Origin: a virus | Strand: one strand, 5' to 3' | IMG/VR virus record: IMGVR_UViG_3300046474_000372 | Span: 1 to 56,805 of that record | Length of the DNA stretch: 56,805 bases | Shown: one piece after another, positions 8,155-35,016 of the stretch | How the letters are laid out: each line of letters opens with the position of its first letter | How positions within the stretch are numbered: the first letter of the stretch is position 1 | The notes under the pieces: generated by a model | The model's database searches: none | The model's input: only the letters and a program-made list of their open reading frames with translations | What the model was told of the DNA's origin: nothing | Translations under genes and position numbers: made by a program

Positions 8155-8159
8155 GATTA

Positions 8160-9658: not shown

Positions 9659-9670
9659 AGCCTAATATGC

Positions 9671-9705: not shown

Positions 9706-9721
9706 GTTCTTTATAAAAAAT

Positions 9722-10896: not shown

Positions 10897-10917
10897 GACT
10901 AATATCCTTTTTAACGA

Positions 10918-10936
10918 GGCTACGTGGATTGTAGCC
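10918..10936 (-). other. Intergenic hairpin between protease and scaffold-like gene
   Basis: GGCTAC-GTGGATT-GTAGCC, 6 bp (7 with A-T). No U-run follows on the minus strand, so it may be an RNA processing or stability element rather than a terminator. Confidence 0.35.
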
Positions 10937-10952
10937 TTTTGAAAATCTTAGG

Positions 10953-13796: not shown

Positions 13797-14324
13797 TTAT
13801 ACAAACGACTTAGGTGAGAATGAAGTGTTATCTTTCCAACGACCTTCTAGATCCGTAAGGCTCTTGATAGTCATAATATCTACGCCATCGCCGTGAACGG
13901 CATTGGTGAGAACAGATTGTAGCAGATTCGGATCAGTTGCAACCATAGGTGCAAATTGATAAATCGTGTTAGCATAATTTTCAACCTTGGCACGAGGCGC
14001 AGATTGAAGAATATGTGAGCTATTAATTGCTTGGTGTAGGGATTGTAGAAAACGATTGTAGCGGAAATGGTCAACTACGTACTTACCTGTATTAGCCAAC
14101 ATCCAAAGCCCGCCGCCTACTGCGAGACCACCAGTTGCTTTACCAGCCTCACGAAAGAAACTTTGTGCAACTTCGTGTTTTGGATCAAATACATTCTTGT
14201 CTGTTTTATCAGCAGCTTCTTTTTCTAGCAATACTTGTGTAACGAAACCCGCTACAAATTGCTCAGCTAGATCTTCGTCTCCAGCAAACTTCTCAAGACC
14301 CAGTTGTTTAACTTCGTTTAACAT
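13797..14324 (-). CDS. Head-region protein with divergent tag
   Basis: A 175-aa protein starting MLNEVKQLGLEKFAGDED, a loose variant of the tag (LEKFA for LEKIA). A hydrophobic segment lies near residues 62-80 ('GGLAVGGGLWMLANTGKYVV'). It also contains 'LLEKEAADK', one of the recurring K-E-A sites. It lies 2 nt from the downstream ADP-ribosyltransferase-like gene, so it is in the same operon. An internal virion protein is inferred. Confidence 0.55.
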   Translation of the reverse strand: MLNEVKQLGLEKFAGDEDLAEQFVAGFVTQVLLEKEAADKTDKNVFDPKHEVAQSFFREAGKATGGLAVGGGLWMLANTGKYVVDHFRYNRFLQSLHQAINSSHILQSAPRAKVENYANTIYQFAPMVATDPNLLQSVLTNAVHGDGVDIMTIKSLTDLEGRWKDNTSFSPKSFV

Positions 14325-14351: not shown

Positions 14352-15434
14352 TTAATCACGCTGGAGAGCGCTCCAGACATCGTTACTTCTTCCAGTTGTT
14401 TTATCTGTGCCTGGATCGTAGAATGCTGCATCTAAAACTGGGCCACCTGCTCTGATAACACCCGATACAGCGCTTGCTGAAGTTCTACCGATAGCCTTTG
14501 CTGTGTTCTTAGCTGTTGGCTTACCTAGAGCTGCAATGTTATTCTTAACAGAGTTGTTAATTGCCTTTCCAGCTGCTGCCGCTGCTCTGAATGGTGTAGA
14601 CGCTGCAACACCAATAGCCTTACCAGCTACATAAGCAGGGTTTGCTTTTTGAGCTGCATTCATTGCAGACTTAGCACCACCTTGCATCGCCTTATTGAAG
14701 ATATTAGATTTTACACCTTGAGCAGCATCTGCTGCACGTTTCTGAAGCTCTGAACGTTCACGTTGTTCACGGACCAGTGCACGAGCCTGTTTGTACAGTT
14801 CTGCAAATCCAGTAGCTTCTTTAAGTTGTGCAACTTTAAACAGTCCAAGCTCTCCAAGTTCACGGTATCCCTTAACCTCGCCAGAAACGAGGATAGAAAG
14901 CTCTGAGAAGGTCTTCTCATCCGTGACACATGCCAGCTTATCCATCCAAGCGTCATCCTTACCAAGAGCCTTTGCGGCCTTCACAAGCATATCCGCTACT
15001 ACAATACTATCCATTTCAATACGTTCAAGAGCTTCTTTGTTAGCTGAAGCCGACTTGATGAGGTATGTAAGCTGTTCTGCTTCGACCAATTGAAGGTCTG
15101 TTGCCGATGCTTCTTTTTCTAGTTCTGCCTTCAGTTCTTCGGTAGTTACTTGGGCAACCTTCTCCTGGAAATTATCAGGAATAGTAGCGGCTGACATAAC
15201 TTCTGCAAACTTAGCTAGTGGGAATTCTACTGTACGATCTTCTGCGTGCTGAAGAATTTTCAAATAAGCAATATTATTCGTTGATTCTACTGCCCGCTTT
15301 ACTTGTTCTACATTCAGTTCATAAGCGGCTGCTTGTTTAGCTAGACCTTTGCTCAGAGGAACTTTGTTATTCAGGAAATCTTCAACTGCTTGAACTGAGA
15401 TATCCCGAAGAAGTTCAGGGGTTACGTTTGCCAT
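14352..15434 (-). CDS. Ala-rich helical internal head protein
   Basis: A 360-aa protein. The start is taken as the ATG at 15434 (MANVTPELL) because GGAG lies 6 nt upstream, inside an earlier in-frame ATG at 15446. The N-terminal 240 residues are helical and carry many K-(E/Q/V)-A sites (LAKQAAAY, QEKVAQ, LEKEASAT, LFKVAQ). The C-terminal third is Ala/Gly/Lys-rich ('PFRAAAAAGKAINNSVKNNI') and could bind DNA or membrane. It overlaps the 56-aa basic gene by 20 nt. A prohead core protein cut during maturation is plausible. Confidence 0.6.
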   Translation of the reverse strand: MANVTPELLRDISVQAVEDFLNNKVPLSKGLAKQAAAYELNVEQVKRAVESTNNIAYLKILQHAEDRTVEFPLAKFAEVMSAATIPDNFQEKVAQVTTEELKAELEKEASATDLQLVEAEQLTYLIKSASANKEALERIEMDSIVVADMLVKAAKALGKDDAWMDKLACVTDEKTFSELSILVSGEVKGYRELGELGLFKVAQLKEATGFAELYKQARALVREQRERSELQKRAADAAQGVKSNIFNKAMQGGAKSAMNAAQKANPAYVAGKAIGVAASTPFRAAAAAGKAINNSVKNNIAALGKPTAKNTAKAIGRTSASAVSGVIRAGGPVLDAAFYDPGTDKTTGRSNDVWSALQRD

Positions 15435-15585
15435 TTTTGGCTCCATGTTTCTGTGACTTTATTTTAACCTTGGCAGACAAGGAGACAAAAGGCTTCTTAG
15501 GGTGCTTAATAGGCTTTTGACCAGCACGCATAGTAAGCTGACCACTCTTCTTCTTTGATGCGATTTTTTCTAGATACTTATTCAT
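15415..15585 (-). CDS. 56-aa very basic NKYLEKIA-tagged protein
   Basis: Starts MNKYLEKIASKKKSGQL and continues with a Lys/Arg/His-rich, Pro-containing tail (contains KPIKHPKKPF and VKIKSQKHG, ends KRNP). No acidic residue occurs after the tag. It lies between the 229-aa gene (ends 15588) and the 360-aa gene, overlapping the latter by 20 nt. The identical tag makes it convincing despite its length. Composition suggests nucleic-acid binding, like the small basic internal proteins of T4 heads. Confidence 0.75.
   Translation of the reverse strand: MNKYLEKIASKKKSGQLTMRAGQKPIKHPKKPFVSLSAKVKIKSQKHGAKNGKRNP
15460..15466 (-). promoter_or_regulatory. Late promoter motif GTTAAAATA within the basic gene
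   Basis: Minus strand reads CAAGGT-TAAAATA-AAGTC, 26 nt upstream of the start at 15434, the same spacing as at 4466, 20973 and 37226. Confidence 0.55.
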
Positions 15586-18334: not shown

Positions 18335-19120
18335 TTAGCACCCAGGTGGATGCTGATTGTCACCTGAAGCTACGGTAATTGTCGGGCCAGCTGCTGCACC
18401 ATTAGCGTCCTTGTTTGCAACTGCTACTCCGCCTGGACCATTAGCGCTGGTGAAGGATGAACCGTAATAAACAGCAGCTACGTAAGCCTCTGCAGAACTA
18501 CCATTACCCTTATCATTAGAAGCTAGACCAATATAGCCTCTGAATGTTGCTTGCATACGACTATCATACGTAAATTGTCCGATCGTAAACTTGTTTCCTG
18601 CTTGCTTTACAAGCTTGTATTTCTGTTCAAGAATAACTAGTCCAGCAAGAATTTGATCTTCGACAGTGTTTTGACCATTGAACTTAGCTGACAAGCTCTC
18701 ACCAGGGTTTACGCAAAGTCTTGAAACCAAGTCTGGCCTTGCTATTTCAATTACGCACTTACCGAGTTTTTGAGATCCACCCTTTACATGATTCCAACCC
18801 ATACTCTGCATAACGCCCCAAGCCCGTAAGCCCTGATCAACGTTAATAGATTGTTGGCCAATACCTTTCCCTAATACAGATTGCACAGCACTAGCGTTGA
18901 TATAATCCCTTGCTCCAGATGAATTAATGGGTTTTAGAGCAGGGCCTTGGGCATTAACGTTGAAATGGCTCTCATGCTGGATTTGAGCCATTAGCAACTT
19001 AACAATGTCTGTTTCTTTACCCAAGGTATTAGCAAAAAACTGGTTCAGTAAATTGCTAAGCGTAGTGCTACAAATCTGTTTAATCGACGTATCGATAACT
19101 GATCCTGTAGCTGATGCCAT
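18335..19120 (-). CDS. Virion lytic transglycosylase (SLT-like)
   Basis: A 261-aa protein with the soluble lytic transglycosylase signature: catalytic E50 in 'LLMAQIQHESHFN' and 'AWGVMQS' (100-106) for the G-x-M-Q motif. The family cleaves the MurNAc-GlcNAc bond of peptidoglycan. No signal peptide is present, and it lies in the late virion block directly after beta-prime C (1-nt overlap), so a tail-associated enzyme that opens the cell wall at entry is more likely than an endolysin. The C-terminal 50 residues are Gly/Ala/Ser-rich. Confidence 0.7.
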   Translation of the reverse strand: MASATGSVIDTSIKQICSTTLSNLLNQFFANTLGKETDIVKLLMAQIQHESHFNVNAQGPALKPINSSGARDYINASAVQSVLGKGIGQQSINVDQGLRAWGVMQSMGWNHVKGGSQKLGKCVIEIARPDLVSRLCVNPGESLSAKFNGQNTVEDQILAGLVILEQKYKLVKQAGNKFTIGQFTYDSRMQATFRGYIGLASNDKGNGSSAEAYVAAVYYGSSFTSANGPGGVAVANKDANGAAAGPTITVASGDNQHPPGC

Positions 19121-20946
19121 TAATACTGTCCTCCAGGACCTTCACCGAATTCACTACCGAGAATGTACGGAGTGATAGGCTCTGTACTGTGTACGTCTGA
19201 TTCAGCACCTACTGCAGCACTTTCACGAATTGTATTCTTAAGACCTGAGAAGGAAAGCTTTGAAACCCAGTTTTCATCAAGTAGCTTGGCTGTCTTAAGA
19301 CCTGGAACGATCGGAGTTACTGTGAGTCCAGTATTAGCTACGTGAACTGTCTTAACGCCGTGACCCTTAAGTTCATTGATGTGGTTGCCATCAAGAAGAG
19401 TACCTGCTGTAAGTTCTAACACACCCTTTGCGAGTAACTTACCTTCAGCCTTTTCAAGAGGCACTTCACCAGCCGTATTTGTCAGGTATTTTTGAATAGT
19501 GTTTACATCAACCTTCTGGCCCGGTAGAAAGCCTGTCTCACCTGGATCTTGAACTTCTACGTGCTTAATAAGATTCTTAGCAATCATTTCGAAGTGACGG
19601 GGATCAAGGTCAGAACCATAGATACCACGAAGTTCGTGGGCCATGTGAATGCGACCGGCACCAAGGCCTTTCAATGCAACTAACTTACGTGGATTTACAA
19701 CTCCAGTTGAAAGAGTATCGCCCTTAAGAACGTTGTCCCCAACAGCTACTTTAAGATTTTGAACTCGTGGGACGAAGTGCATTTGTTCATTAACAAATAC
19801 CTGATGGTCACCAAGAGGCGTTTGCTTAATTGCTGAAACTACGCCATTGATACCAGTAATCGTGGCTTCATCTTTAAAGTTCTCAGCTGGGTTACGGAGC
19901 AGGTTTGAAGCCTGTTCGTATGAGTTACCCTTACGAGCACCAACTGATGCCTTGTGCTTCGTTGAAAGCATTGACTGAGTCAGAACTTCAGAAACAGATT
20001 GGGCAGCGATTACGCCCACATTTTCACCTATCTCAGCTGGCTTACCATTTCCCATTAGACCATAACATTTCTTGCAAACACCTTGGTGAGCTTCACATGT
20101 AAGTGCGCTGCGAACCTTTATGTTTTTATGACCTGAGCTAACCAGTTCCTTATAATAGGCTTCATCGATGAGATGATTTGTACCTGCCTCGTATCTTCCA
20201 ACAGCACCCTTCTTATCAACGATGGGAAGCAGAATACCATTGGTAGTTCCGCAGTCATCAATCGTGATAGTTTCGTGGAATACCGTTGGGGAAAGTTCCT
20301 TGAACAGAGCACCTGGAAGCGCAGTTGAAAGCTGTGAAAGCACAGTACTACCTCTTCCCATGTAACTCATTGCGAGCATCTCAGCAGGAGACATGCCTTT
20401 TGCAAATGATGACTTAATTACGTATGGGACTAGCTCGCCCTTCAAGTTAATTGACATTAGCGGCGTTGAAGTACCAGTAGCAAGCTGTGTAGGATTACCA
20501 CGAGCGCCTGTACGAGCCATCTTGGCTGCAGTCGATCCTTTGGACAAAAGATGTTCCAGATTTTGCTTTTCTATCTTACCGTTGTATTCCCCGGTCAATG
20601 CACCAAGCTCATCATTTTCTTTAGTTTTCGGAAGTTTCTTTGCAAAAATTTGATGAACCTTTGTTTCAAATTCATCGATAATAGCTTGTCTGTCGTCGCT
20701 TTCGTTAATGTAGTCAGTTAACGGTGTAGTAGCGCCAATTTCAGTAGCCTTGTTAAAGAACTTCTTGCCGAGATCATTAATAACCTCGTGACTATTTTCG
20801 CCACCGTGTTTCAGAAGCACATTTACTAGATCTGAAATACCTTTCTTATCTAGAGGCCTATATAGGTCGTAGTTGTCTCTAGCTTCTTTGGTTGGCAGTT
20901 CGCTTTTTAGCTTTAGTGCCCCGGCTGTTGTGTATTTTTCTGACAT
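19120..20946 (-). CDS. RNA polymerase beta-prime subunit, C-terminal part
   Basis: A 608-aa protein covering the bacterial beta-prime from the region before the bridge helix to near the C-terminus. Visible signatures: 'MARTGARGNPTQLA' (~143-156), 'ITIDDCGT', the second zinc site 'TCEAHQGVCKKCYG' (~283-296) and the bridge/trigger-loop core 'GENVGVIAAQSVSE' followed by LTQSMLSTKHKAS. It completes a beta-prime whose catalytic N-part is at 27503. Jumbo phages such as phiKZ and AR9/PBS1 also carry split RNAP subunits. It has its own late promoter 27 nt upstream. Confidence 0.9.
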   Translation of the reverse strand: MSEKYTTAGALKLKSELPTKEARDNYDLYRPLDKKGISDLVNVLLKHGGENSHEVINDLGKKFFNKATEIGATTPLTDYINESDDRQAIIDEFETKVHQIFAKKLPKTKENDELGALTGEYNGKIEKQNLEHLLSKGSTAAKMARTGARGNPTQLATGTSTPLMSINLKGELVPYVIKSSFAKGMSPAEMLAMSYMGRGSTVLSQLSTALPGALFKELSPTVFHETITIDDCGTTNGILLPIVDKKGAVGRYEAGTNHLIDEAYYKELVSSGHKNIKVRSALTCEAHQGVCKKCYGLMGNGKPAEIGENVGVIAAQSVSEVLTQSMLSTKHKASVGARKGNSYEQASNLLRNPAENFKDEATITGINGVVSAIKQTPLGDHQVFVNEQMHFVPRVQNLKVAVGDNVLKGDTLSTGVVNPRKLVALKGLGAGRIHMAHELRGIYGSDLDPRHFEMIAKNLIKHVEVQDPGETGFLPGQKVDVNTIQKYLTNTAGEVPLEKAEGKLLAKGVLELTAGTLLDGNHINELKGHGVKTVHVANTGLTVTPIVPGLKTAKLLDENWVSKLSFSGLKNTIRESAAVGAESDVHSTEPITPYILGSEFGEGPGGQY

Positions 20947-20972
20947 GGATTTAGAGGTTAAAATTCAATTCC

Positions 20973-20979
20973 TATTTTA
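20973..20979 (-). promoter_or_regulatory. Late promoter motif GCTAAAATA, beta-prime C
   Basis: Minus strand reads TATAGC-TAAAATA-GGAAT, 27 nt before the start at 20946. Only 9 nt separate it from the divergent plus-strand promoter at 20989, so the two cannot easily be occupied together. Confidence 0.6.
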
Positions 20980-20988
20980 GCTATAACC

Positions 20989-20998
20989 TTGGTATAAG
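20989..20998 (+). promoter_or_regulatory. Plus-strand promoter TTGGTATAAG with 5' hairpin
   Basis: Exact motif. The RNA start region folds as AAAGTA-tG-GAAC-aca-GTTC-tg-TACTTT (21000-21026), placing a hairpin at the 5' end just before the ribosome site TAGGAG. Confidence 0.7.
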
Positions 20999-21038
20999 TA
21001 AAGTATGGAACACAGTTCTGTACTTTTAGGAGCCGAGC

Positions 21039-21176
21039 ATGTACAAAGTGGATTATGAGTTTGGAAACTTTTTTGTGTACAAACGCGGGAAGCGTCTTCC
21101 CAAACCTTTCACTTCCTTTAAAGAAGCTGAAGATCACATGGAGGAGCTGAAAAATGTTGGCAGCATACAGAGTTGA
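21039..21176 (+). CDS. Uncharacterised 45-aa protein
   Basis: ATG preceded by TAGGAG. Encodes a basic, aromatic-containing peptide starting MYKVDYEFGNFFVYKRGK. It overlaps the next gene by 23 nt, indicating coupled translation. No family recognised. Confidence 0.55.
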   Translation: MYKVDYEFGNFFVYKRGKRLPKPFTSFKEAEDHMEELKNVGSIQS

Positions 21177-21426
21177 AATGACAGAGTCTGAAGCTGGATG
21201 GGGTCAGCGTCCGGATGGCTATATCTATAGTCTGTCGAAAGAAAAGCTTCAAGTGAGACTGAAAGAGATCGATGCAGCAAAAGAGTACGAAGAGTACTCG
21301 TTCCCTTCCAGCGACGTAGTTCTTGTCGAAATCACCCCTGAATTTCAAGAGTTTTTGGAACTCGGAGATAAAGATCCGTATTGGACCCCTGTCGGCAAGC
21401 ACGCTGGCGACCTCACCCGCAAGTAA
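21154..21426 (+). CDS. Uncharacterised 90-aa protein, tandem paralogue 1
   Basis: Begins MLAAYRVEMTESEAGWGQR, then DGYIYSLSKEKL. The next gene opens with the same plan (MYAVYRVCMKEY...GWVDDGCIYSTQEH), so the two are a tandem duplicate pair of small alpha/beta proteins. GGAG lies upstream. Function unknown. Confidence 0.6.
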   Translation: MLAAYRVEMTESEAGWGQRPDGYIYSLSKEKLQVRLKEIDAAKEYEEYSFPSSDVVLVEITPEFQEFLELGDKDPYWTPVGKHAGDLTRK

Positions 21427-21448
21427 CTTCACATCATAGGGACAAGCT

Positions 21449-21817
21449 ATGTACGCAGTTTACCGTGTTTGCATGAAAGAGTACATTCCCGGCGTAGGTT
21501 GGGTCGATGACGGATGCATTTATTCCACGCAGGAACATGTGGTAGAACAAGAGCGTGATCGTCGCAAGAATCTCTTCTATCAAGAGTCCGGTAACGCTCA
21601 TGGAAGCATTGCCGAAATCGTAATCGTCCACGAATCGTTTTTGCGGGATCTTCACGTTCATCCCATTCTTTCCACTATGAAGGGTCCGCATCCCGCAGAT
21701 CAAGGTCTGTTGAGCGAACACACGGCCAAAGTCAAAGCAGCACAAAGCCTTTATAAGGTTTCTCGCACGGCTGCTCAACGTGCAAGAAATACCAATGTCC
21801 TTTCACCGGTTCTGTAG
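21449..21817 (+). CDS. Uncharacterised 122-aa protein, tandem paralogue 2
   Basis: Shares its first ~45 residues' pattern with the preceding gene and adds a basic helical tail (contains KVKAAQSLYKVSRTAAQRAR). GGGACA precedes the start. The last 86 nt overlap the convergent minus-strand gene at 21732. Confidence 0.6.
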   Translation: MYAVYRVCMKEYIPGVGWVDDGCIYSTQEHVVEQERDRRKNLFYQESGNAHGSIAEIVIVHESFLRDLHVHPILSTMKGPHPADQGLLSEHTAKVKAAQSLYKVSRTAAQRARNTNVLSPVL

Positions 21818-22157
21818 CTTCACATAGCTTGTAGTTCTTTTCCCAGGCAGGGCTGAGCGGGGTCAGATACACACGATCCCCCAGCCCGTACTTTTTCAGT
21901 AAAACTGGAAGGTGTTGGTATAAAGACTTAAATATCCCCTTACCTTTATTTTTACTCTTTGCAAGACTTTTTGCAGTTCCGCCAAACTCTCCAACAGCGT
22001 TTAATACAAGGTATCCTTTATAAATAGCAATGTCGATTGGGATTCCAGCTATCCAAGCTGTTCCTGGCAGCATCGTTGCATCTTTGAATTCTATCGACGT
22101 ATTGGCAAGCTTCGCCCAATCTCTAAGGAATTCATTATCTTTGATAAGTAGACTCAT
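21732..22157 (-). CDS. Uncharacterised protein, possibly acetyltransferase-like
   Basis: A 141-aa protein. 'SKNKGKGIFKSLYQHLPVLL' followed by 'LGDRVYLTPLSPAWEKNYKL' resembles the cofactor-loop helix and final strand of small N-acetyltransferases, but the match is weak. Its ATG is the reverse half of the palindrome CATATG shared with the divergent gene at 22158, and its 3' end overlaps the convergent neighbour by 86 nt. No promoter motif is seen. Confidence 0.5.
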   Translation of the reverse strand: MSLLIKDNEFLRDWAKLANTSIEFKDATMLPGTAWIAGIPIDIAIYKGYLVLNAVGEFGGTAKSLAKSKNKGKGIFKSLYQHLPVLLKKYGLGDRVYLTPLSPAWEKNYKLCEATEPVKGHWYFLHVEQPCEKPYKGFVLL

Positions 22158-23297
22158 ATGGTTAATCTTTCTTCAACTGTAACACCAGTAAGTTCTGCAT
22201 CTGACGAATACTGGACGCAAATCCCTAAGACTTACGACGAACGCAGACAAATCAAGACCCGTCTTGCCAGAGCTTTTCGAGACTGTTTGACCCAAGTCAA
22301 GTTAAGTGGAAATGTTCGTGAACTTAAATCGTATTATAAGCCTAACGAGCAAGCTTATGTAGAATCCATAGAAATGACAATGGATAACTACTCATATAAC
22401 CGTAGCAATAACGAAGATGTTATCAATGCGTTTCTCGTACATATAGGAGCACAAAATTCTGAGCGTAACGAGAAAACTCAAAACTATACTACCTTTATGT
22501 TCGATGGGGTTAAGGTAACGTTATGGCACGTAACTGATGGCAGGCATGCTACAAATAGTAGAGCAGGCGGATACTTAGATGCCCAAGCTCAGATTTTATT
22601 TTTCGGTTACGGAGGTTTGTATAAACTTCTGAATATTGTACTTAAGGAATCGGGCTTTTATCTTTCCGAGGACGTTTGTGTCAAATATGCTGGGGACAAT
22701 GGAAACGGAGTCACAAGTGAGTTTATTGTATCTTCCTCAGGAGACTGTTCAGTAAGATTGCTTGGGATGAGTAATAGGGCGTATTCCGACGCCACCTACG
22801 CAAACTTCAGAAATATCGGAGATATCGTAACGTGGATCCTTAAAGGAAAATACGTTTCATTTTCTGATTTCCACATGAACGAGGCTAAACAGTACACGGG
22901 TCCAGATGATTATTTTGGATGCGACATGTTCCGCCAAGCAGTAGAGTTTCTCAGAACAGCTGACTGGGAAAGTCTCACAACTCCTACTTCACTACCAGTG
23001 ACTTCTAATAAACACAGACTTAAACTGTGGGAAGGCTGGAACCCTGGGTCATATAGAGAATACACGACAATGAGCGAGAATCGTGTAAAGTATTCTCTCA
23101 TCGGCGCTAAGTACAATGATGCTGTGATTCAAGAAGTGACAGGACTAGACTCTGATACTATCCCGTTCAAGACGTTCAAACCTGCATTCGAAGCAGAGAT
23201 TTCTGCAAAGCAAGACTTCGAGTTCTTCTTGCTGAGTTCTTCCGAAGAAACTATTAAAAGCAAAATCCAAGAGACGTACCAGAGACTTACGGCTTAA
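22158..23297 (+). CDS. Uncharacterised 379-aa protein
   Basis: A large soluble protein with mixed alpha/beta pattern and no motif I recognise. 'AFLVHIGAQNSERNEKTQNYTTFMF' and 'VKVTLWHVTDGRHATNSR' are conserved-looking cores, and a C-terminal helix carries many acidic residues. The annotated ATG has no clear ribosome site. It is followed by a strong terminator, so it is transcribed separately from the repair genes downstream. Confidence 0.55.
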   Translation: MVNLSSTVTPVSSASDEYWTQIPKTYDERRQIKTRLARAFRDCLTQVKLSGNVRELKSYYKPNEQAYVESIEMTMDNYSYNRSNNEDVINAFLVHIGAQNSERNEKTQNYTTFMFDGVKVTLWHVTDGRHATNSRAGGYLDAQAQILFFGYGGLYKLLNIVLKESGFYLSEDVCVKYAGDNGNGVTSEFIVSSSGDCSVRLLGMSNRAYSDATYANFRNIGDIVTWILKGKYVSFSDFHMNEAKQYTGPDDYFGCDMFRQAVEFLRTADWESLTTPTSLPVTSNKHRLKLWEGWNPGSYREYTTMSENRVKYSLIGAKYNDAVIQEVTGLDSDTIPFKTFKPAFEAEISAKQDFEFFLLSSSEETIKSKIQETYQRLTA

Positions 23298-23307
23298 GTT
23301 TTAAAAT

Positions 23308-23343
23308 AGCTTAGACATGTTATAATGTGTCTAGGCTTTTTTT
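23308..23343 (+). terminator. Strong Rho-independent terminator
   Basis: AGCTTAGACA pairs with TGTCTAGGCT (10 bp, one G-U) around a 10-nt loop, followed by TTTTTTT. It separates the 379-aa gene from the repair helicase. Confidence 0.85.
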
Positions 23344-23369
23344 AGCTTTTCAAAGGCGTCACTACAAGA

Positions 23370-25304
23370 ATGTTACAACCAAACGACGAATTCCTCTTCA
23401 CCCGTCAGCGGCACGAAGCCGACGTAATGGGCACTCACTACGATCTAAGACTTGTTCATGGAGACAAAGCTTATTCTTTTGCAACGCTTAAAGATATGCC
23501 AAAGCCGGGTGAAATCATTGGCGTATTTGAACAGCCGGTCCATGACCGTGCATACGCATTGAGTAAAAAGGTTGTAATTCCAAAAGGCCAATATGGCGCT
23601 GGAACTACGTATCTAGATTGGGTTCGTAAGGCGATTGTAGCACCACACAGCACAGAGACTATGCTGGTAATCTTCACCAAAGACGGTGAGAAGTTTTTGT
23701 TGAAGAAGTCCCCTACGAAAGATGCCCCTACTTCTTGGATATTTCGAAACATTACCGGAATGGGTAAGAGTCAAAGTCCATATCTCACACGTAAGACTTC
23801 TCTCGAAAAGAAGGCTTGGGCGCTTGACGATTATGCTGGTGGTAACGTATATCTAGAAAAGATTGCCAAGAAGAAACAGGAACAGAAAAGTGACCTACAG
23901 CCTCACCAAATTGACGCTCTTGACCATTTGGATAAAGAAAAAGGCGTTGTCCTTCATCACAGCCTTGGCAGCGGCAAGACAAAGACGTTTCTTAAGGCAG
24001 TACAGAAGTATCAAGAACAGTACCCTAAAAAGAGGGCGCTGGTCATTGCTCCTGCCAGTCTCGTCACGAACGTTGATAAAGAACTTAAGAAGCACAAGAT
24101 TAACTTGGACAGAAATCGACTGGATGTAATGTCCTACGAAAAAGCTGTTAACGATGCACACAAACTACGTAAAAATGATTACTCCATCGCAGTTGCTGAC
24201 GAAGCTCACAGGCTCCGTAACACGAACACTAAACGTACTAGAGAACTCCGAGACATTATCAGCGGTGCTGATCGTCGTTTACTTGCAACTGCTACTGGCA
24301 ATTACAATAAGCTCTCTGATATATCAGCTCTTGTAAACATTGCTGCAAATGATAATGTTCTTCCGGAAGAAGCCAAGAAGATGGAAGATCGTTACACGAA
24401 AGAAGAAATCATTAAGCCAGGTTTCAAAGATAGACTTCTTGGAGCCAAGCCTGAAGCAGTGCGTAGACTCGACCGTAGGAAAGAGCTTAAGGAAATTCTC
24501 AATCAATACGTAAGTTTCTATGACAGTCAGGATGACCCTGCAGCTGCAAAGCACTTCCCGAAGAAGACTGAAAAGATAGTAGAAGTGGAAATGTCTAAGG
24601 AACAGCAGAAGTATTACAAGTTTGCTGAAGGGAAATTACCATTTCTATTACGGATGAAATTGAGGCACAATATGCCTATGGACAAGAAAGAAATGGCAAG
24701 TCTTAATTCATTCTCTGCTGGCGTAAGACAGGTTTCTAACGGTCACAGGCACTTGACGTTAGACGGTAAGGCTGAGTACTCACCTAAGATCCTGAAGGCC
24801 GTAGAGAGCTTACAGAAGGGTATGGCAGAGGATAAGAACTTCAAGGCACTTGTATATTCGAACTACCTCGATGCTGGCCTGCGAGACTATTCTAGAAAAC
24901 TGAAAGAAGCCAAGATTGACCATGCTATCTATGATGGGTCACTGTCAAGAGCAGAGAAGGATCACTTGGTCAAAGAATACAACTCAGGTAAGAAGAAGGT
25001 TCTGCTGATTTCATCTTCAGGTTCAGAGGGGTTGGATTCCAAGGGGACAAAGCGAGTGCAAGTGCTAGAACCTCACTTCAACCCCAGTAAAATCAACCAG
25101 GTAGTTGGGCGTGCTGTACGATTTGGTTCACACGAACATCTGCCAGAAGCGGAGCGCAATGTGCTAGTCGAGCATTTCCACAGCGTACATCCGAAGCCTA
25201 TGTGGGGCAAGACTCCGTATTCGATTGATAAGTATTTGTCAGAGAATTCAGATACTAAAGAAGAACTGTTTGATGAAGTAAAAGGACTAATGAAAAATGA
25301 CTAA
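23370..25304 (+). CDS. LigD-type 3'-phosphoesterase fused to SF2 helicase, internal NKYLEKIA-like tag
   Basis: A 644-aa fusion. Residues 5-80 match the 3'-phosphoesterase (PE) domain of bacterial LigD: H15, 'THYDLRL' (H23, D25, R27), K41, 'VHDRAY' (H58, Y62) and 'IPKGQYGAGT' (70-79). PE domains clean 3' ends by removing phosphate or ribonucleotides. Residues 159-166 read NVYLEKIA, a copy of the head-protein tag. Residues 176-600 are an SF2/SNF2-like helicase: LQPHQ (176-180), GSGKT (200-204), DEAH (277-280), 'LLATATGN' (motif III) and 'VVGRAVRFGS' (motif VI). Its last codons overlap the ligase gene, so both act together in DNA end repair. Confidence 0.8.
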   Translation: MLQPNDEFLFTRQRHEADVMGTHYDLRLVHGDKAYSFATLKDMPKPGEIIGVFEQPVHDRAYALSKKVVIPKGQYGAGTTYLDWVRKAIVAPHSTETMLVIFTKDGEKFLLKKSPTKDAPTSWIFRNITGMGKSQSPYLTRKTSLEKKAWALDDYAGGNVYLEKIAKKKQEQKSDLQPHQIDALDHLDKEKGVVLHHSLGSGKTKTFLKAVQKYQEQYPKKRALVIAPASLVTNVDKELKKHKINLDRNRLDVMSYEKAVNDAHKLRKNDYSIAVADEAHRLRNTNTKRTRELRDIISGADRRLLATATGNYNKLSDISALVNIAANDNVLPEEAKKMEDRYTKEEIIKPGFKDRLLGAKPEAVRRLDRRKELKEILNQYVSFYDSQDDPAAAKHFPKKTEKIVEVEMSKEQQKYYKFAEGKLPFLLRMKLRHNMPMDKKEMASLNSFSAGVRQVSNGHRHLTLDGKAEYSPKILKAVESLQKGMAEDKNFKALVYSNYLDAGLRDYSRKLKEAKIDHAIYDGSLSRAEKDHLVKEYNSGKKKVLLISSSGSEGLDSKGTKRVQVLEPHFNPSKINQVVGRAVRFGSHEHLPEAERNVLVEHFHSVHPKPMWGKTPYSIDKYLSENSDTKEELFDEVKGLMKND

Positions 25305-26661
25305 CAAGTACCTAGAGAAAATGGCAGCTCAGCTTAAAGAACCGGCAAGTCCGGAAAGTCTAGGCTTTGACTTGTCAAAAGGTGATGAGAAAGAACTGTA
25401 CAAGTGGATGACAGCCGTCACTCTTTTCTCTAGGCCTATTCAACGTTCAGTCGCATCTTTAGCTGCTAAACACATGGCTTCGAAGGGGTTTTATTCCCCG
25501 GAAGCTGTTGAGTCTGCAGGCTGGGAAAATCTACGTGATGCATTAGTTCAAGGCCATTACGGACGTTTCGATGAGTCAACAGCTACTACGATGCTTGCTC
25601 AGGCCAAACACCTGAGAGAGAAGTACGGGACTATTAATAATCTGATAGATAATCATACTCCTGAAGAAATTCGTGCTGAGATTCAGTCCTTCAGAGGTAT
25701 TGGTCCTTTGGGGAGTCAGTTGTTTGTAGAAGGTATCAATCCGTACCTTAGTCAAATTCAGAAGCAAGCTTCAATCGACACATACGTCAGACACAAATAC
25801 GTAGAAGGCGATTGGACAGCACTCGAACATCCAGTTGCATCAAAGAAATGGGACGGGGCCCACTTTGTGCTTACCGTACAGCCTGATGGCTCTTTAACTT
25901 ACCATTCACGTAGGCCAAGTGTAAAAGGTGGATTCCCAGAGCGTTCAGCACAGCTTCCACATCTGGCTAAACCAATGCCAGAATACGTTGGTAACCAGTT
26001 TGCGGTAGAGCTTGTACACACCGGACTTGCAAAGTCTGAAACCGAGTCGCACCCTACAGTTTCAGGTATTCTTAATTCTCTACCTCCGAGATCTATTGCA
26101 ACTCAAGCTGAGAAAGGCCCAGTACGTGCTGTGCTAATTGACGTTAAGAATCCGAATCTCGCAACATACAAAGATAAAGTTGAGTATCTTCAAAAGTTCG
26201 AAAAGGACTACGGAAATTCTGATTTGATGTTTGCACCTCACTTAGAGTACGGGGTAGATGCGATCAACAAATACCTAGATACTATCAAGAGCCAGAAAGG
26301 CGAAGGCTTAATAGTTGCGGACTACGCTAAGCCTGAGACAGAATCAGTACGATACAAAGTAAAGAACTACGTAACGTATAATCTGAAGGTTATTGGCCAG
26401 CAACAAGAAATCGACATCAAGGGCAACCCAAAAGATAGTATGGGTGCATTGATTTTGGCTGATGCCTCAGGACGTATGGTAGGAAAGGTTGGAACTGGGT
26501 TTGATAGAGACACTAGAATCCAAGCCTGGAAGAATCCAGCCATGTTTAATGAGAAGCTAATTCAAGTAAAAGCGTATCCTCCTAGCGTTCCAGGTGGTCA
26601 AATCAGATTCCCAGTTTACAATGGGTTTTCTGATGGGGACCTTGACCGAGTAAATCTCTAA
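25297..26661 (+). CDS. HhH-GPD glycosylase-like domain fused to ATP-dependent DNA ligase, NKYLEKMA-tagged
   Basis: A 454-aa protein. Residues 1-10 are MTNKYLEKMA, the head-protein tag. Residues ~30-170 look like an HhH-GPD (EndoIII/AlkA-type) domain: 'FRGIGPLGSQLFVEG' hairpin at 132-146 and 'SIDTYVRHKYV' (159-169), whose D161 fits the catalytic Asp of V-D-T-H; the EndoIII lysine is replaced, so a monofunctional glycosylase or a non-catalytic DNA reader is likely. Residues ~176-454 are a nucleotidyltransferase ligase: K184-W-D-G187 (motif I), 'FAVELVHTG' (III), 'EGLIVADY' (IV), 'RYKVKNY' (V). Overlaps the helicase gene by 8 nt. Confidence 0.8.
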   Translation: MTNKYLEKMAAQLKEPASPESLGFDLSKGDEKELYKWMTAVTLFSRPIQRSVASLAAKHMASKGFYSPEAVESAGWENLRDALVQGHYGRFDESTATTMLAQAKHLREKYGTINNLIDNHTPEEIRAEIQSFRGIGPLGSQLFVEGINPYLSQIQKQASIDTYVRHKYVEGDWTALEHPVASKKWDGAHFVLTVQPDGSLTYHSRRPSVKGGFPERSAQLPHLAKPMPEYVGNQFAVELVHTGLAKSETESHPTVSGILNSLPPRSIATQAEKGPVRAVLIDVKNPNLATYKDKVEYLQKFEKDYGNSDLMFAPHLEYGVDAINKYLDTIKSQKGEGLIVADYAKPETESVRYKVKNYVTYNLKVIGQQQEIDIKGNPKDSMGALILADASGRMVGKVGTGFDRDTRIQAWKNPAMFNEKLIQVKAYPPSVPGGQIRFPVYNGFSDGDLDRVNL

Positions 26662-26683
26662 AATCCACAATTGGTCCTTCGAA

Positions 26684-26693
26684 TTGGTATAAG
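26684..26693 (+). promoter_or_regulatory. Plus-strand promoter TTGGTATAAG with 5' hairpin
   Basis: Exact motif, followed by GTAGAG-GAAATTCAT-CTCTAC (26700-26720) at the expected RNA start. Confidence 0.7.
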
Positions 26694-26753
26694 AATAATG
26701 TAGAGGAAATTCATCTCTACTAAAAACAATTCTACTTCGTAAGGACCAGTACC

Positions 26754-27401
26754 ATGAACCAGCTTTTTGCAGCCCCGAAACAGTCTACAGCAAGCTATGA
26801 CGGTCAAGGGTGGCTCGTTCAACCCAAGAACTTTTCCCATGCTGTTTATTTGGTCATCGAGGCAGAGCCGGGTCTCAAGCAGTCCGAGATTCGCAATGTT
26901 TTGAAAGCTCTCGGTAACTCTGTAAACAATTTGCATCAAGCAATAAACGACCTTTTCAAGGGTGGATACATCGCATACTCGAACATTAAGGGTGCGATGC
27001 ATGACCCTGATGATCGTTTGAAGTTCCGTTGGCGAGTCACCGATAAGCTGTACAAGCCGAAGGCGATCATGAAGAAGATCAAGCCCCTGCCCGTCACAGA
27101 AAACGCACCTTCTCTCCCAAGAATCGATGAAATCAAACCGGAAAAGCGTACGCCAGAGCTTCATATCGTTCAAGGCATTGCAACGGTTGACGCAGGTCAT
27201 CCTCAGTTCGGAAAGATTGCGAAAACCATTCTCGACGCAACCAAGTCGGATCCGGCTCCGGTCGCGACTGAGACTCCCAAGGTAGAAGAGAAACGTCTCA
27301 TCACCGGGATTTTCATCGACATCGATGAGAAGGGAATTGTGTTGACTCCGGAGCAGTTCATGAAACTGTTCAAGGAAATGAAGACACTGATCGAAGGATA
27401 A
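26754..27401 (+). CDS. Winged-helix-like protein
   Basis: A 215-aa protein. Residues ~28-85 read as a helix-turn-helix with wing: 'AVYLVIEAEPGLKQSEIRNV' then 'NLHQAINDLFKGGYIAYSNI', as in MarR/replication-initiator winged helices. The middle is Pro/Lys/Glu-rich and flexible; the C-terminal ~35 residues form a small folded tail. It likely binds DNA; whether as regulator or accessory factor is unknown. Monocistronic: own promoter, own terminator. Confidence 0.55.
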   Translation: MNQLFAAPKQSTASYDGQGWLVQPKNFSHAVYLVIEAEPGLKQSEIRNVLKALGNSVNNLHQAINDLFKGGYIAYSNIKGAMHDPDDRLKFRWRVTDKLYKPKAIMKKIKPLPVTENAPSLPRIDEIKPEKRTPELHIVQGIATVDAGHPQFGKIAKTILDATKSDPAPVATETPKVEEKRLITGIFIDIDEKGIVLTPEQFMKLFKEMKTLIEG

Positions 27402-27457
27402 GTACAGCGCAAGGACTGACTGCGCTTATCCCCCAGGTAGGCGTGGTCGGGAGGTTT

Positions 27458-27500
27458 AGGAGAGCACCGGACAACCCTGCGGGTGTCTCTCCTCTTTTTT
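27458..27500 (+). terminator. Rho-independent terminator
   Basis: AGGAGAG-CACC pairs with GGTG-(T)-CTCTCCT, 11 bp with one bulge, followed by CTTTTTT. It faces the convergent beta-prime gene ending at 27503. Confidence 0.85.
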
Positions 27501-27502
27501 GA

Positions 27503-28672
27503 TTAGCCGTGGCTAGTGATTTTTAGCGGAGTGTTCTCGTTGATTTCGCCCTTGCGTAGAGCTTCGAGAGCATCTTCTTCTGTTGCGAATTCACGAGGAG
27601 CTTGAGTTGTATCAGGTTCAGTAATTGCCATAGAACCAATAACGGCTTCGTGGCCAGGTGCTACCATTGATGCGCCTTGGCCTTTACGATAGTCGTAAAT
27701 GTGTTGTTGTGGCAGAAGCTTTTGTTTAGCTTCTTCAACTGCTTCTGGGGTCATCGGTACGTGCAACGTTAAAGCATCGCCATCGAAGTCACCTGCATAC
27801 ATAGGAAGATGCAGAGGATTGATACCAAGTGTCTTGCCCTCAATAGGCACAGGGAAGTGAGCCGTAATGTTGGTTCTCATTAGAGTAGGAGCCCGGTTAA
27901 GAATAACAGGAACCTGCTTAATCATCTTGTTAAAGCTGTTCGTTGCAGCTACATCCCTATTTTCTACAGCTTTTCTGGCAGCAATCAAATCATAGCCGTT
28001 ACGAACCAAGTCACGAATGATGTGGAACTCATACATTGTCCACAGCATATCCTTTGGTGCAGCAACTTCGTTGAAGCCAAGATTAGGCTCTGCATAAATA
28101 GTTGCTCTACCTGAGAAGTCTTGTTTCTTCTTAAGAAGTTTGTTGTGGAAGAATCCGCCTTTAGGCCCAGTATCTCCAGAGATTTGCTGGATGTAACCTT
28201 TTAGTTCCTTTCCTCGTGCGCTCCCAGATACGGCATCACCGAGACCGAAAATAGCTTTGACGCCATTATAAGCATCTTTGCGTTCATTAACCAATTGATC
28301 ATGAGTAAGGTCATCCTTGATATCCTTTAGAGAATTGTTGATGGTCATATGGTCACGGTAAAGAGTATTCACATCAGCGAACTCAATACGATTACCACCC
28401 ATAGGAATACTAGGACGAACTAATGGAGGTGTTACTGGAATATTGTGAAGCACATAAGCTGACTCAGGGTTCAAGCCCACTTTTTTTAGCCCAGCTAAGT
28501 ACTTGATTTTTTTAACAATTGCGTCTCTCTTAGACGGAGACTTAGTTTCTTTGATCTCAGCCTTAAGCGCATTAATTTGCGATTCTACATCGATGCTTGA
28601 TAGCATTTGATGGAATGCATCACCTGAAACTGCTAGAGTTTCTGGATCTACGGGTTCATTTGGTTTGCTCAT
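27503..28672 (-). CDS. RNA polymerase beta-prime subunit, catalytic N-terminal part
   Basis: A 389-aa protein with the active-site magnesium loop: 'YAGDFDGDALTLHVP', D295, D297 and D299. Upstream are 'IPVTPPLVRPSIPMGGNR', 'KKKQDFSGRATI' and 'VPVILNRAPTLMR', all core beta-prime blocks; downstream is 'MVAPGHEAVIGSMAIT'. It begins at the equivalent of about E. coli residue 300, so the first zinc finger and much of the clamp are absent and no gene in this window supplies them. It continues functionally in the gene at 19120. A TTAAAATTT sequence 8 nt before the ATG is a weak late-promoter variant. Confidence 0.9.
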   Translation of the reverse strand: MSKPNEPVDPETLAVSGDAFHQMLSSIDVESQINALKAEIKETKSPSKRDAIVKKIKYLAGLKKVGLNPESAYVLHNIPVTPPLVRPSIPMGGNRIEFADVNTLYRDHMTINNSLKDIKDDLTHDQLVNERKDAYNGVKAIFGLGDAVSGSARGKELKGYIQQISGDTGPKGGFFHNKLLKKKQDFSGRATIYAEPNLGFNEVAAPKDMLWTMYEFHIIRDLVRNGYDLIAARKAVENRDVAATNSFNKMIKQVPVILNRAPTLMRTNITAHFPVPIEGKTLGINPLHLPMYAGDFDGDALTLHVPMTPEAVEEAKQKLLPQQHIYDYRKGQGASMVAPGHEAVIGSMAITEPDTTQAPREFATEEDALEALRKGEINENTPLKITSHG

Positions 28673-31259: not shown

Positions 31260-31631
31260 TTATTTTATATAAGTCAGCATGATAAGGTCATCGGTATACA
31301 GATCTAAAGACTCTGGCAATACCAATACATTATTTATGACTTCATAAGCCGTTCTGGATTGGAGAAATCCATTTATAAACAGCATTGTTCCCGCCGTCGG
31401 GGAATCAGGTAAGGATAGGTTTTGAGCACCGTCTGCAGACAGAGTAAACTCTGCTTGCTCTAGGGTAAACGATGATGGTTCAGACCTATCTCCAGCTGAT
31501 GTCGGTGGAGCTACAACCCCTACCGGAGTGGCAGGAGGTGTAGTTACTATCTGATCTATATCGTATTCATCATCTACGATTTCAGCAAGGTCAGATAGTC
31601 CCCGTATAAACCTATTGGGATTCGTGATCAT
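31260..31631 (-). CDS. Small fibre/virion protein
   Basis: A 123-aa protein. The C-terminal 50 residues ('GTMLFINGFLQSRTAYEVIN...DLYTDDLIMLTYIK') resemble the small beta domain ending the adjacent fibre ('LELFLNGMLLEPGAGNDYTI'). The N-terminal half is acidic and Pro-rich. It overlaps the end of RNAP beta by 20 nt, so it is coupled to it. Confidence 0.55.
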   Translation of the reverse strand: MITNPNRFIRGLSDLAEIVDDEYDIDQIVTTPPATPVGVVAPPTSAGDRSEPSSFTLEQAEFTLSADGAQNLSLPDSPTAGTMLFINGFLQSRTAYEVINNVLVLPESLDLYTDDLIMLTYIK

Positions 31632-34600
31632 TATGCCCTTCCGCTTCGCTACTTATGTTAGCACTATTCACTTTTATAGTTTTAATGTGCTGACCGTTCG
31701 ACGTATTGTGCAGAGCAAATGAACCATCATCCAACTTCTTGATACCGATTGAGCCTTGGATAATACCGTCGAACTCGCTTGACTTCAGGCCTAGAAGACT
31801 CTTAATAGGCCGTTCAAACACTGGGTTTGGTAAGGATTCTGCTAGTTCGTAGTGTGTCCACTGCTTACCTCTTAATCCACCTGTCGTACCTGGATCGTAC
31901 AAACCACCCTTTTCAGGTTCAAGATTCTTGGCACTCAGAAGTTCTGGTGAAAGAATCTTGCCATTTGACATACCTAGAATGTCTTGGTCTGTCATAGGAG
32001 ATATTGTCAGCTTACCGTCTTTAATGCTTGTCTTGATACCAGACCCACTCAGATAATCAAAGAACTTCTGAGTTGAAAATGTCATCTTAGGTTTTGGCAA
32101 AGCTTGACCAGATCTAAACTTAGCCCAGTACTCTGAGTTTTCCTGTGACTTAAGCGTCGAGATTTCCTTAAGGTTCTTACGAGCATTTGAGCCAAGAAGA
32201 CCAAGCATTTCCATGTACCCAACTGACTTAGAGCCTTCTTCACCGCCCTTCGTAGGTTGAAGTACATTATCGTAGCTTCCAACGTTACGAGCTGACCAGT
32301 TTTGGTCGGTAGTCTTGTACAGCTTCAGAAAGTACTGAGGGCCTGTAAGAATCTTGCCTAGATCTTTACCAGTCTTAGGATCCACCATCATATCAGTGTC
32401 GCTTACGCCTAGTTTATCAAGTTCACTCTTAAGCTGAGAAACGTTGCTTGACTTGGCAAAGTTATGCACAAAGTAAGGTTTCCCAGTCACCTTAGCAATC
32501 TTGCCAGCAGCAGTTTCCATAAGCTGACCCAAGTTAATACGTGAAGTTACTGAAGCGGGGTTAAGCAGAATATCAACCGGAGCGCCAGTCTCTTTCTTGA
32601 ACGGCATTTCGTTATCAGAAAGAATCAGTGAAACAATACCTTTATTACCATGAAGTCCTGTTAACTTATCGCCAATCTCAAGCGGCTTAACTGAACGTAC
32701 TAGAAGACGAATATTCTTGCCTTCAGTATGTGCATCTACTACAGTACCATTCTCTTCATGAGTCCAAGCTTCGCTAACTACTCGGTAAGGATTTACCAGC
32801 GATTTGTGAAGACGTGCAAGCATTCGGTCTTCTGACGTAGGCTCACGTTTTTCAAGCACAGCATACACTGGATCGCCGTGATTCATAGTTGCACCCACCT
32901 TAGCAAAGCCACGTTCATCTAGTTTCTCAAGCTGTTCTTTAGTGAACCTGCCCGGGAAGTGGCGAGCTAGCAAAGTCTTGCTCATAGTTGAGATAGGCTG
33001 TACTGCATAGTCAACCTTATATGCGTGATGGCTGCTTAGACTATCAGCACATGAACGGCTAATTACCAAACCGTCTTCGTGGTTGTAGCCCTTATACGGC
33101 ATGTACGCAACTTCAAGATTTTTACCCAGCGCTAGTTCTCCGTCAACTGTGTAGTTGTTATCAGAAATAGGCTGACCATCTGCAACTCTATCGCCAACCT
33201 TAACGAGAGGCTTTTCATCATCAAGGAAACCCTTCATGTTGAACGGTAGATTTTTAACTAGATCTACTTTGTGAGTACGGCCATCTACGTCGTCTTTGAT
33301 ATGGATTTGTGACTTGGTGACGTTTGTGATTGTTCCAGCTACAGGTGCAATCGTGCTAATAACGTTGCCGATTGCCTTAGTGAAACTTACTCCACCACCA
33401 GTAACAGTCTGTACAAGAGGCTTCTCACGATTAACAAGTGAAAGCGCCTGGGGAATAGCTTTACCTGCCATCGTTAGACGGCCAGGGTGATTACTATTCA
33501 AGAACGGTACGAGGTTAGTCGTAATCGTGTACATGTCTGTCGTATCTGCAAGCCAGTAATCTACTTGGTTTACAGGAACTTCTTTAAGCGCACCCCGAAC
33601 CTGAGCTTGTACTGTTTTCTTGCCTTCTTGATGTGGAAAGCCGATTGTGCTTGTCATCATTTCCTGCACTGACAGGTAATGTTGCTTTCCTTGTTTATCA
33701 AGAACTCGTGAATACAGATTTCCACTATCATCACGACGAGCGGAAATAGTGAAACGTTGGTCAATACCAGCGTGACCTGATTCCGGCGTACGGCTAGGAT
33801 CGATAATGCCAAGGTGAGATGGGTCGATATCTCGTGCTGACATAGGTACGCCACGGTCTGAAGCAATACCGCCTTCACCGGCACCTAGTACAGTGACCTT
33901 TCCGACGCTTTCCAGGCTCTCTAGCGGGTTCGTTTCCGAAGGAGTAGATACCAGGTTAGAATCGATGATGTAGCCCGTCATAACCTTGTTATAGGGCTTG
34001 CTGACCACTACGTCACGCAGGGATGGATTCTTGGTCTTGTCAAGGCCTGCTAGAAGCTTACGACGGATGCTTGGGAGCATTTCGTGCTTGCTGAAACGAG
34101 TACGGATGAAGTCGGGCAGATTCTGAACACGTTTAAATTGCAGAGAATCTCGATTATCTTCTTCACGGTCACCTGCGTGTACTTGAACAAGGTTCTTCAT
34201 AGCACGTAGAATCGATTCAGAATTAACTGAACCAAGTGACTTTCCTAGCGTAACCAAAGTTGTTTGCGGAGAAAGAGACGATGCTTCCATTGATTCACGG
34301 AGTTGCATGATCTTTTCTTCTGTACTGGCTGTTGGCTTTTGCTTACCAGTTGACACTAGCTTGCTGTATAGATCATTGATGATCTTTTGCTCTTTCCCTG
34401 CTGAGGAAGCAAGGTTGGCTTCCCAAACCTGCGCAGGAACATACTGACTTACTTCTTTGGGACCAATGCCAAAAACTCTTGAGACCAACGGTCCAAGAGG
34501 AATAGTTGAAGACGAGCTTGCAGGATGTACTGAAAACTGGAATGTCTGTGGATCAAGCGTAATGGAGAAGCTTCGACCTGAGCCAGTGTTGAAGTGAGAC

Positions 34601-35016
34601 TCTAGTTCGCCAGTTTCTTTACTACGAGTATAAACTCCAGGGTTAAGCTGGAGCTGATTTGCTACTGAGTAGTTATTACCCTTATAAAGCATCGTGTGCT
34701 TTGGAGTAATGTGGAATGCATCCATCAAAGAGAAATTCTTATTCTCATCAATTACTTTGCCAGTAGCCTTGTCGATCAGTTTGATGTGACCACGAATAGG
34801 ATATGCAAGAGACTTTGATTTAAGAATCGCATCTTTCTCATCAAGGTGAGTGAACTCTTTTGGTTCGGTGCGAATATCTTCAAGAGTAAGAACATAATTC
34901 TTACCCTCGATAGGGAATTGAGAAGCGATGCCTTGCATTAAGGAAGCATCCACACGTTGGCGAATTTCCTTAGGCGATGAAAAGATAAGTTGTAGATTAT
35001 CGGCTGGTGTCGGCAT
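31612..35016 (-). CDS. RNA polymerase beta subunit
   Basis: An 1134-aa protein (E. coli beta is 1342). Diagnostic blocks: 'YKGYNHEDGLVISRS' (~640-654) and 'GDKLTGLHGNKGIVS' (~781-795), the beta sequences lining the active centre, and 'VDILLNPASVTSRINLGQLM' close after. It is unsplit, unlike the beta of phiKZ-like phages, while its partner beta-prime is split. No NKYLEKIA tag. It lies between portal and fibre genes, coupled to a 98-aa gene by a 20-nt overlap. With beta-prime and the sigma-like factor at 54350 it would form a phage polymerase that could read the TAAAATA or TTGGTATAAG promoters. Confidence 0.92.
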   Translation of the reverse strand: MPTPADNLQLIFSSPKEIRQRVDASLMQGIASQFPIEGKNYVLTLEDIRTEPKEFTHLDEKDAILKSKSLAYPIRGHIKLIDKATGKVIDENKNFSLMDAFHITPKHTMLYKGNNYSVANQLQLNPGVYTRSKETGELESHFNTGSGRSFSITLDPQTFQFSVHPASSSSTIPLGPLVSRVFGIGPKEVSQYVPAQVWEANLASSAGKEQKIINDLYSKLVSTGKQKPTASTEEKIMQLRESMEASSLSPQTTLVTLGKSLGSVNSESILRAMKNLVQVHAGDREEDNRDSLQFKRVQNLPDFIRTRFSKHEMLPSIRRKLLAGLDKTKNPSLRDVVVSKPYNKVMTGYIIDSNLVSTPSETNPLESLESVGKVTVLGAGEGGIASDRGVPMSARDIDPSHLGIIDPSRTPESGHAGIDQRFTISARRDDSGNLYSRVLDKQGKQHYLSVQEMMTSTIGFPHQEGKKTVQAQVRGALKEVPVNQVDYWLADTTDMYTITTNLVPFLNSNHPGRLTMAGKAIPQALSLVNREKPLVQTVTGGGVSFTKAIGNVISTIAPVAGTITNVTKSQIHIKDDVDGRTHKVDLVKNLPFNMKGFLDDEKPLVKVGDRVADGQPISDNNYTVDGELALGKNLEVAYMPYKGYNHEDGLVISRSCADSLSSHHAYKVDYAVQPISTMSKTLLARHFPGRFTKEQLEKLDERGFAKVGATMNHGDPVYAVLEKREPTSEDRMLARLHKSLVNPYRVVSEAWTHEENGTVVDAHTEGKNIRLLVRSVKPLEIGDKLTGLHGNKGIVSLILSDNEMPFKKETGAPVDILLNPASVTSRINLGQLMETAAGKIAKVTGKPYFVHNFAKSSNVSQLKSELDKLGVSDTDMMVDPKTGKDLGKILTGPQYFLKLYKTTDQNWSARNVGSYDNVLQPTKGGEEGSKSVGYMEMLGLLGSNARKNLKEISTLKSQENSEYWAKFRSGQALPKPKMTFSTQKFFDYLSGSGIKTSIKDGKLTISPMTDQDILGMSNGKILSPELLSAKNLEPEKGGLYDPGTTGGLRGKQWTHYELAESLPNPVFERPIKSLLGLKSSEFDGIIQGSIGIKKLDDGSFALHNTSNGQHIKTIKVNSANISSEAEGHNDHESQ

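Follow-up and report, generated by a model that had tools for sequence, protein, structure and literature searches.

A tagged and probably virion-targeted DNA end-repair cassette in a large uncultured phage

Why would a large phage put the same short peptide on a DNA end-processing enzyme, a translocase and a ligase as on proteins of its head module? This question is raised by a plus-strand cassette of two genes in IMG/VR record IMGVR_UViG_3300046474_000372, a 56.8-kb fragment of a large uncultured phage, the whole of which is called the window below. Genes 1 and 2 (644 and 454 aa) lie where the original prediction had placed them and share 8 nt (25297-25304), and both carry a tag of the type NKYLEKIA. 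The window was compared with related viral contigs and loci, labeled L002-L099. The cassette is probably a DNA end-repair kit that would be targeted to the virion and processed by the head protease. The features of gene 1 are as follows.

23370-25304, plus strand: gene 1, 644 aa, with a 3'-phosphoesterase (PE) domain, a tag-bearing linker and a Snf2-family ATPase
23385-23753, plus strand: LigD-type PE domain, residues ~6-128 (Pfam LigD_N, PDB profile matches, invariant residues)
23802-23816, plus strand: LEKKA, an [LIVM]xKxA site (residues 145-149) behind the PE domain and within a low-confidence linker
23844-23867, plus strand: internal tag NVYLEKIA, residues 159-166
23877-25289, plus strand: Snf2-family ATPase/translocase, residues 170-640 (Pfam and structure search)

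The N-terminal domain of gene 1 had been predicted to be a LigD-type phosphoesterase, and the sequence profile test agreed with this. Pfam LigD_N matched residues 13-81 (E=4.6e-7) with 30.4 bits, which was 0.7 under the cut-off of 31.1, and the score was above the cut-off in relatives. In the PDB profile search, the PE family profile matched the solved PE domains 3p43 (E=4.9e-9), 3p4h and 3n9b. Moreover, H15, H23, D25, R27, H58 and Y62 were invariant in 12 sequences with identity down to 43-47%; they correspond to the His/Asp/Arg/His/Tyr set expected for a PE active site from the positions of P. aeruginosa LigD. The PE domain of LigD turns 3' ends into 3'-OH (PMC8656161). The fold assignment rests on sequence, because the structure search with the PE-Snf2 protein was filled by Snf2 chains. 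No PE domain was found at E<0.01 in 50,697 isolate phage records, and a literature search did not find a paper on phage PE domains.

The linker of gene 1 (residues 132-173) was predicted with a model confidence (pLDDT) under 50. Behind it, Pfam detected SNF2-rel_dom (E=9.6e-20) and Helicase_C (E=3.3e-15), and the nearest fold to the predicted structure of residues 170-640 was SNF2h (Z 27.2, root-mean-square deviation 3.7 over 396 residues). Snf2-family translocases travel on duplex DNA without unwinding it. The SF2 helicase of the original prediction is more exactly a Snf2-family translocase. Gene 2 contains the following features.

25297-26661, plus strand: gene 2, 454 aa, with tag, helical domain, junction site and ATP-dependent DNA ligase
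25303-25326, plus strand: N-terminal tag NKYLEKMA, residues 3-10
25387-25746, plus strand: helical domain (residues ~25-150) with a possible helix-hairpin-helix, FRGIGPLG
25756-25770, plus strand: [LIVM]xKxA site IQKQA, residues 154-158, at the junction of helical domain and ligase
25777-26652, plus strand: ATP-dependent DNA ligase, residues 161-452, KWDG motif at K184

The predicted ATP-dependent ligase was recovered in gene 2 by a PHROG match (E=7.7e-18). T4 DNA ligase was the nearest fold to the predicted structure of residues 161-454 (Z 20.7, root-mean-square deviation 3.4 over 276 residues), in a search that used the entire gene 2 model and whose result was dominated by the ligase domain. 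K184, D186 and G187 were kept in every aligned row having the ligase domain, and residues 157-165 formed a low-confidence junction in the model. A bacterial-genome scan with the ligase profile did not find relatives. The helical domain had been read as an HhH-GPD-like glycosylase domain for lesion recognition, but Pfam and PDB sequence searches did not match HhH-GPD, and only a weak HHH_5 match appeared in one relative (best E=0.0036). The Asp-motif-like IDTYV reads AENYQ or IEDYV in relatives and is positioned beyond the helical domain; a stand-alone homolog of this domain (L061, 5998-6483) stops short of the putative catalytic Asp position. Glycosylase activity was rejected because of the missing family match and the unconserved, displaced Asp.

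The tag on both cassette proteins had been predicted as well. It also occurs on six further open reading frames (ORFs) of the window, all in the head module.

13012-13794, minus strand: tagged ORF with weak ADP-ribosyltransferase (ART)/Tpt1-like similarity
12492-13022, minus strand: tagged ORF, MENKYLEKIA
15415-15585, minus strand: tagged ORF, 56 aa
9233-9658, minus strand: tagged ORF
8752-9243, minus strand: tagged ORF
7897-8154, minus strand: tagged ORF, MGNKYLEKIA

With a degenerate DNA pattern for the tag, five relatives (73-181 kb) gave 6-9 copies each, of which 41/41 fell in the structural gene block, while the reversed pattern used as control gave 0. For example, the tags of one 181-kb contig lay within 30.6-53.5 kb. 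The third codon positions of the tag vary freely, so the tag is a peptide, and a DNA or translation signal was rejected on the same ground of variable synonymous sites. A search of 2.9 million viral contigs found the exact ATG-tag in 52 stretches; homologs of the structural module were present in 12 of the 13 new-contig stretches examined, and the remaining one is only 2 kb long. There were 110 distinct tagged ORFs, grouped in ~40 sequence families. Judged from its sequence contexts, the tag is best explained as a putative head-targeting and processing peptide.

Some carriers deserve mention in their own right. The ORF at 13012-13794 (minus strand) matched Pfam PTS_2-RNA (E=0.0011) and PARP (E=0.012) and is a possible counterpart of T4 Alt. 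Ferritin/rubrerythrin/EncFtn-like domains carry the tag in L008 (10851-11066), L079 (6001-6699) and L056 (3171-3941, assigned by eye), and may be iron- or oxidation-protective cargo. L049 has a tagged 90-aa ORF (14021-14293) away from the core head block, past the capsid gene and surrounded by genes of tail/neck type.

The tag ends in LEKIA(S) and contains the wider motif [LIVM]xKxA, which occurs in the following head proteins (a slash marks the putative cut).

6446-7339, minus strand: major capsid protein, KEA/S near the N-terminus
10953-12467, minus strand: head maturation protease, [LIVM]xKxA sites at residues 30-34 and 217-221
10036-10896, minus strand: scaffold/core-like protein, 5 [LIVM]xKxA sites
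14352-15446, minus strand: core-like protein, 9 [LIVM]xKxA sites (1.65 expected)
8160-8759, minus strand: core-like protein, 6 [LIVM]xKxA sites (0.57 expected)

Among 400 gapped pairs, this motif came out top (z 10-13) in head modules from the window, from two relatives and from Salmonella phage Arash (OQ632216). The head-core proteins contained 35 copies in the window (6.8 expected) and 32 in Arash (4.3 expected). The motif also took first rank around the capsid gene of four contigs with a capsid protein of just 32-42% identity. The enrichment was absent from the RNAP/portal region and from unrelated regions of the window and Arash, and a composition effect was rejected with shuffles and with reversed and similar control motifs. 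Ser after the motif Ala was enriched 4-7x. Furthermore, the capsid proteins share KxA at one place near their N-terminus (GHTKEA/S in the window, GLVKEA/G in Arash, IKEA, IKTA and QKDA in others), and both sites flanking the protease domain keep K and A in 9/9 proteases compared, with identity down to 28%. The head-core enrichment, the capsid KxA and the invariant protease-flanking sites indicate that the head protease is very likely specific for [LIVM]xKxA, with a predicted cut after Ala. The protease class rests on a PHROG match and the conserved H98 and S149, because a PDB profile search with the protease gave no significant match. The known head proteases from T4, phiKZ and SPN3US have Glu just before the cut (PMC9026906, PMC10052503), and a KxA head-protease motif was not described in the papers located.

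The same motif is placed selectively in the putative cargo. In 28 PE, helicase and ligase proteins, with domain limits taken from BLAST coverage, 50 copies fell outside domains, in linkers, against 13.1 expected; this fourfold excess was reached in 0/500 shuffles. Inside domains there were 2 copies against 13.8 expected. The untagged distant proteins alone had 20 copies outside domains compared with 5.8 expected. The control motifs AxKxh, hxAxK, hxRxA and hxExA gave no such pattern of linkers and domains in the cargo enzyme set.

The cassette enzymes occur split or fused in different ways among the relatives. L007-L009 and L010 encode the PE domain and the helicase in two genes, and the helicase starts with MNKYLEKIA; what is an internal tag in the window is thus the start of an independent protein in these relatives. 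L061 has the helical domain as a protein of its own, tagged and adjoining an untagged ligase; the fused gene of L010 has a full tag, NKYLQKAA, at the junction of these two domains; and the ligase of L074 has its own N-terminal tag. In 20/21 close PE loci (L065-L085), the PE domain is followed by a tag or motif at a distance of a few dozen residues at most, and in the exception, L077, the distance is ~100 residues. This is not a selection effect, because the PE locus scan used PE patterns and no tag patterns; the ligase scan used the tag and is hence biased. What comes after the PE domain and tag or motif varies: the helicase in the window, L071 and L074, an ART-like domain in L061/L084, a ferritin-like domain in L079, and a stop in L010 and L059 (the latter with NKYLEKLSHYA). 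A conserved domain of ~260 aa with no assigned function follows the PE domain and tag in L007 (8445-9269), L058, L060 and L062.

Among more distant relatives, PE and ligase are fused in L086-L089, L093, L095, L096 and L099, and Snf2, PE and ligase share a single chain in L090 and L092. The originally suggested rearrangement of LigD parts agrees with this evolutionary picture. In L090 and L092, motifs stand before and just after the Snf2 domain, in L092 also just after the ligase, and there are zero between PE and ligase. The same capsid-protein family was present in 10/10 distant contigs tested. From these gene architectures we conclude that PE, Snf2 and ligase form one linked repair unit, which in this lineage is probably built as head cargo; of the single repair pathway first proposed, this linkage was supported and lesion recognition by a glycosylase was not. 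Apart from this, L097 encodes a 1874-aa PE-ligase-Snf2 protein (5608-11229) with an intein-like insertion within its Snf2 domain (Pfam Intein_splicing E=1e-7).

The head module occupies the middle of the window on the minus strand and includes the portal, RNA polymerase (RNAP) subunits, the protease, the scaffold-like protein and the major capsid protein. The cassette is located between two parts of RNAP beta'.

35304-37199, minus strand: portal
31612-35016, minus strand: RNAP beta
27503-28672, minus strand: N-terminal part of RNAP beta', flanking the cassette
19120-20946, minus strand: C-terminal part of RNAP beta', flanking the cassette

The split of beta' with an opposite-strand cassette in between (19120-28672) is kept in relatives. 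The beta ORF of Arash (1525 aa) extends ~380 aa beyond the portion matching the beta of the window and is perhaps fused to beta' N. Related ORFs were found at varying positions in or near the cassette (window 55216-55770; L002 2440-3063; L004 2349-2831; L056 5384-5995 and 7431-7940; L074 8999-9916), and they behave as mobile, perhaps HNH-type, genes would.

How might the cassette work? NKYLEKIA would be a short targeting propeptide, functioning like the T4 capsid targeting sequence, and its second half, LEKIA/S, would be where the head-maturation protease encoded by the phage itself cuts. Tagged proteins would go into the prohead core, where the protease would take off the tag and, in fused cargo, also cut the motif between domains. 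PE, Snf2 translocase, ligase and the helical, putatively DNA-binding domain would thereby be set free. Once ejected, PE would make 3'-OH from 3'-phosphate or 3'-ribonucleotide ends, the Snf2 motor would travel along duplex DNA and remove bound proteins, and the ligase would close nicks or ends, so that the incoming genome could be mended or circularized. The full sequence of polyprotein cargo, in which repair enzymes fused via head-protease sites are cut in the prohead, injected and used to seal the entering genome without Ku, is put forward only tentatively.

Several observations weigh against a packaged repair kit. About 11 distant contigs have a ligase gene that lacks the tag, so ligase packaging is not universal; Ku was not found in 13 contigs searched, some of them fragmentary, so end joining would need another synapsis route. 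Motif I of the ligase reads KxDGA(H/N) or similar and not the usual KxDGxR, its Arg being replaced. The Snf2 gene adjoins RNAP genes, which is consistent with a transcription role; this location and the untagged distant ligases weigh most. Arash is the sole isolate whose head module is syntenic, and it has the motif without the NKYLEKIA tag or a PE domain on its Snf2 protein. Finally, the relatives share ancestry and are not independent, so the counts overstate independence. The untagged ligases of most distant relatives, together with the normal service of phage ATP ligases in replication (PMC7824862), would suit an ordinary, unpackaged repair or replication cassette acting inside the cell on replicating phage DNA at a late stage of infection, with a tag that came from gene fusion and is neutral or makes a minor head contaminant. 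We consider this unlikely, because the tag or motif comes soon after the PE domain in nearly all close PE loci whatever comes next, the motif is rare inside domains and retained at junctions, and the L074 ligase has a tag of its own.

The position of the cassette between the two beta' genes bears on another explanation, in which the Snf2 protein works with the phage RNAP as RapA would, in recycling or early transcription, and PE and ligase are passengers. The Snf2 gene of Arash comes directly after beta'C, and a jumbo-phage survey proposed such action for Snf2 genes beside beta'C (PMC7824862). However, L090 and L092 have Snf2 in one chain with PE and ligase, the window, L071 and L074 have a fusion of Snf2 with PE only, and the Snf2 gene of L095 comes after a PE-ligase gene, which makes this role less probable still. 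Shared short N-terminal peptides can also act in import, and the tag might then be a localization signal for an intracellular phage compartment instead of the head; a tag restricted to the structural gene block and built on the motif of scaffold, protease and capsid propeptide leaves very little room for this.

If the virion-targeted repair kit is real, some large phages carry a LigD-like repair kit in the particle, which would explain part of the protein cargo of large heads. NKYLEKIA and [LIVM]xKxA would then be a readable code for listing, from sequence alone, what an entire group of uncultured phages carries as cargo. The arrangement also suggests a natural route for loading fused enzymes into capsids and releasing them.

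Compared with known systems, the closest isolate is Arash, which has a syntenic head module, a capsid protein 55% identical, the same motif and a Snf2 homolog 40% identical; a literature search did not find a paper on it. Bacterial LigD of non-homologous end joining likewise has PE and ATP-ligase modules, fused in the distant relatives here. In the window, by contrast, PE and ligase are on separate chains, joined to Snf2 and the helical domain, respectively, and no polymerase domain was found; the LigD arrangement of PE, ligase and polymerase in one chain plus Ku is thus not that of the window. The internal proteins of T4 and Alt, which are ejected into the host, carry a propeptide of 10 residues, one part for targeting and one for processing (PMC9026906). 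The likeness is a short N-terminal peptide common to unrelated proteins, in which a targeting part is combined with a head-protease site; here it is found on diverse head-module proteins, with cleavage predicted from the motif, and the tagged ART-like ORF parallels Alt. Unlike in T4, phiKZ and SPN3US, the site is [LIVM]xKxA and does not end in Glu, and unlike the T4 internal proteins, the cargo includes DNA repair enzymes and has tags also between fused domains. The head protein DarB of P1 contains Snf2 and protects incoming DNA, and injected proteins with several domains are a familiar type (PMC5512222). Such polyvalent proteins are thought to be injected, include a Snf2 ATPase and have been proposed to be released by proteolysis (PMC5512222), and the PE/Snf2/ligase proteins, known here from genes, have the same multi-domain architecture. 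The differences are the PE and ligase set, which is undescribed there (LigD is unmentioned in PMC5512222), and the proposed release by the head protease at a short motif instead of by an embedded peptidase. T4-type internal proteins and injected polyvalent proteins are therefore the known themes of which this cassette is a variant.

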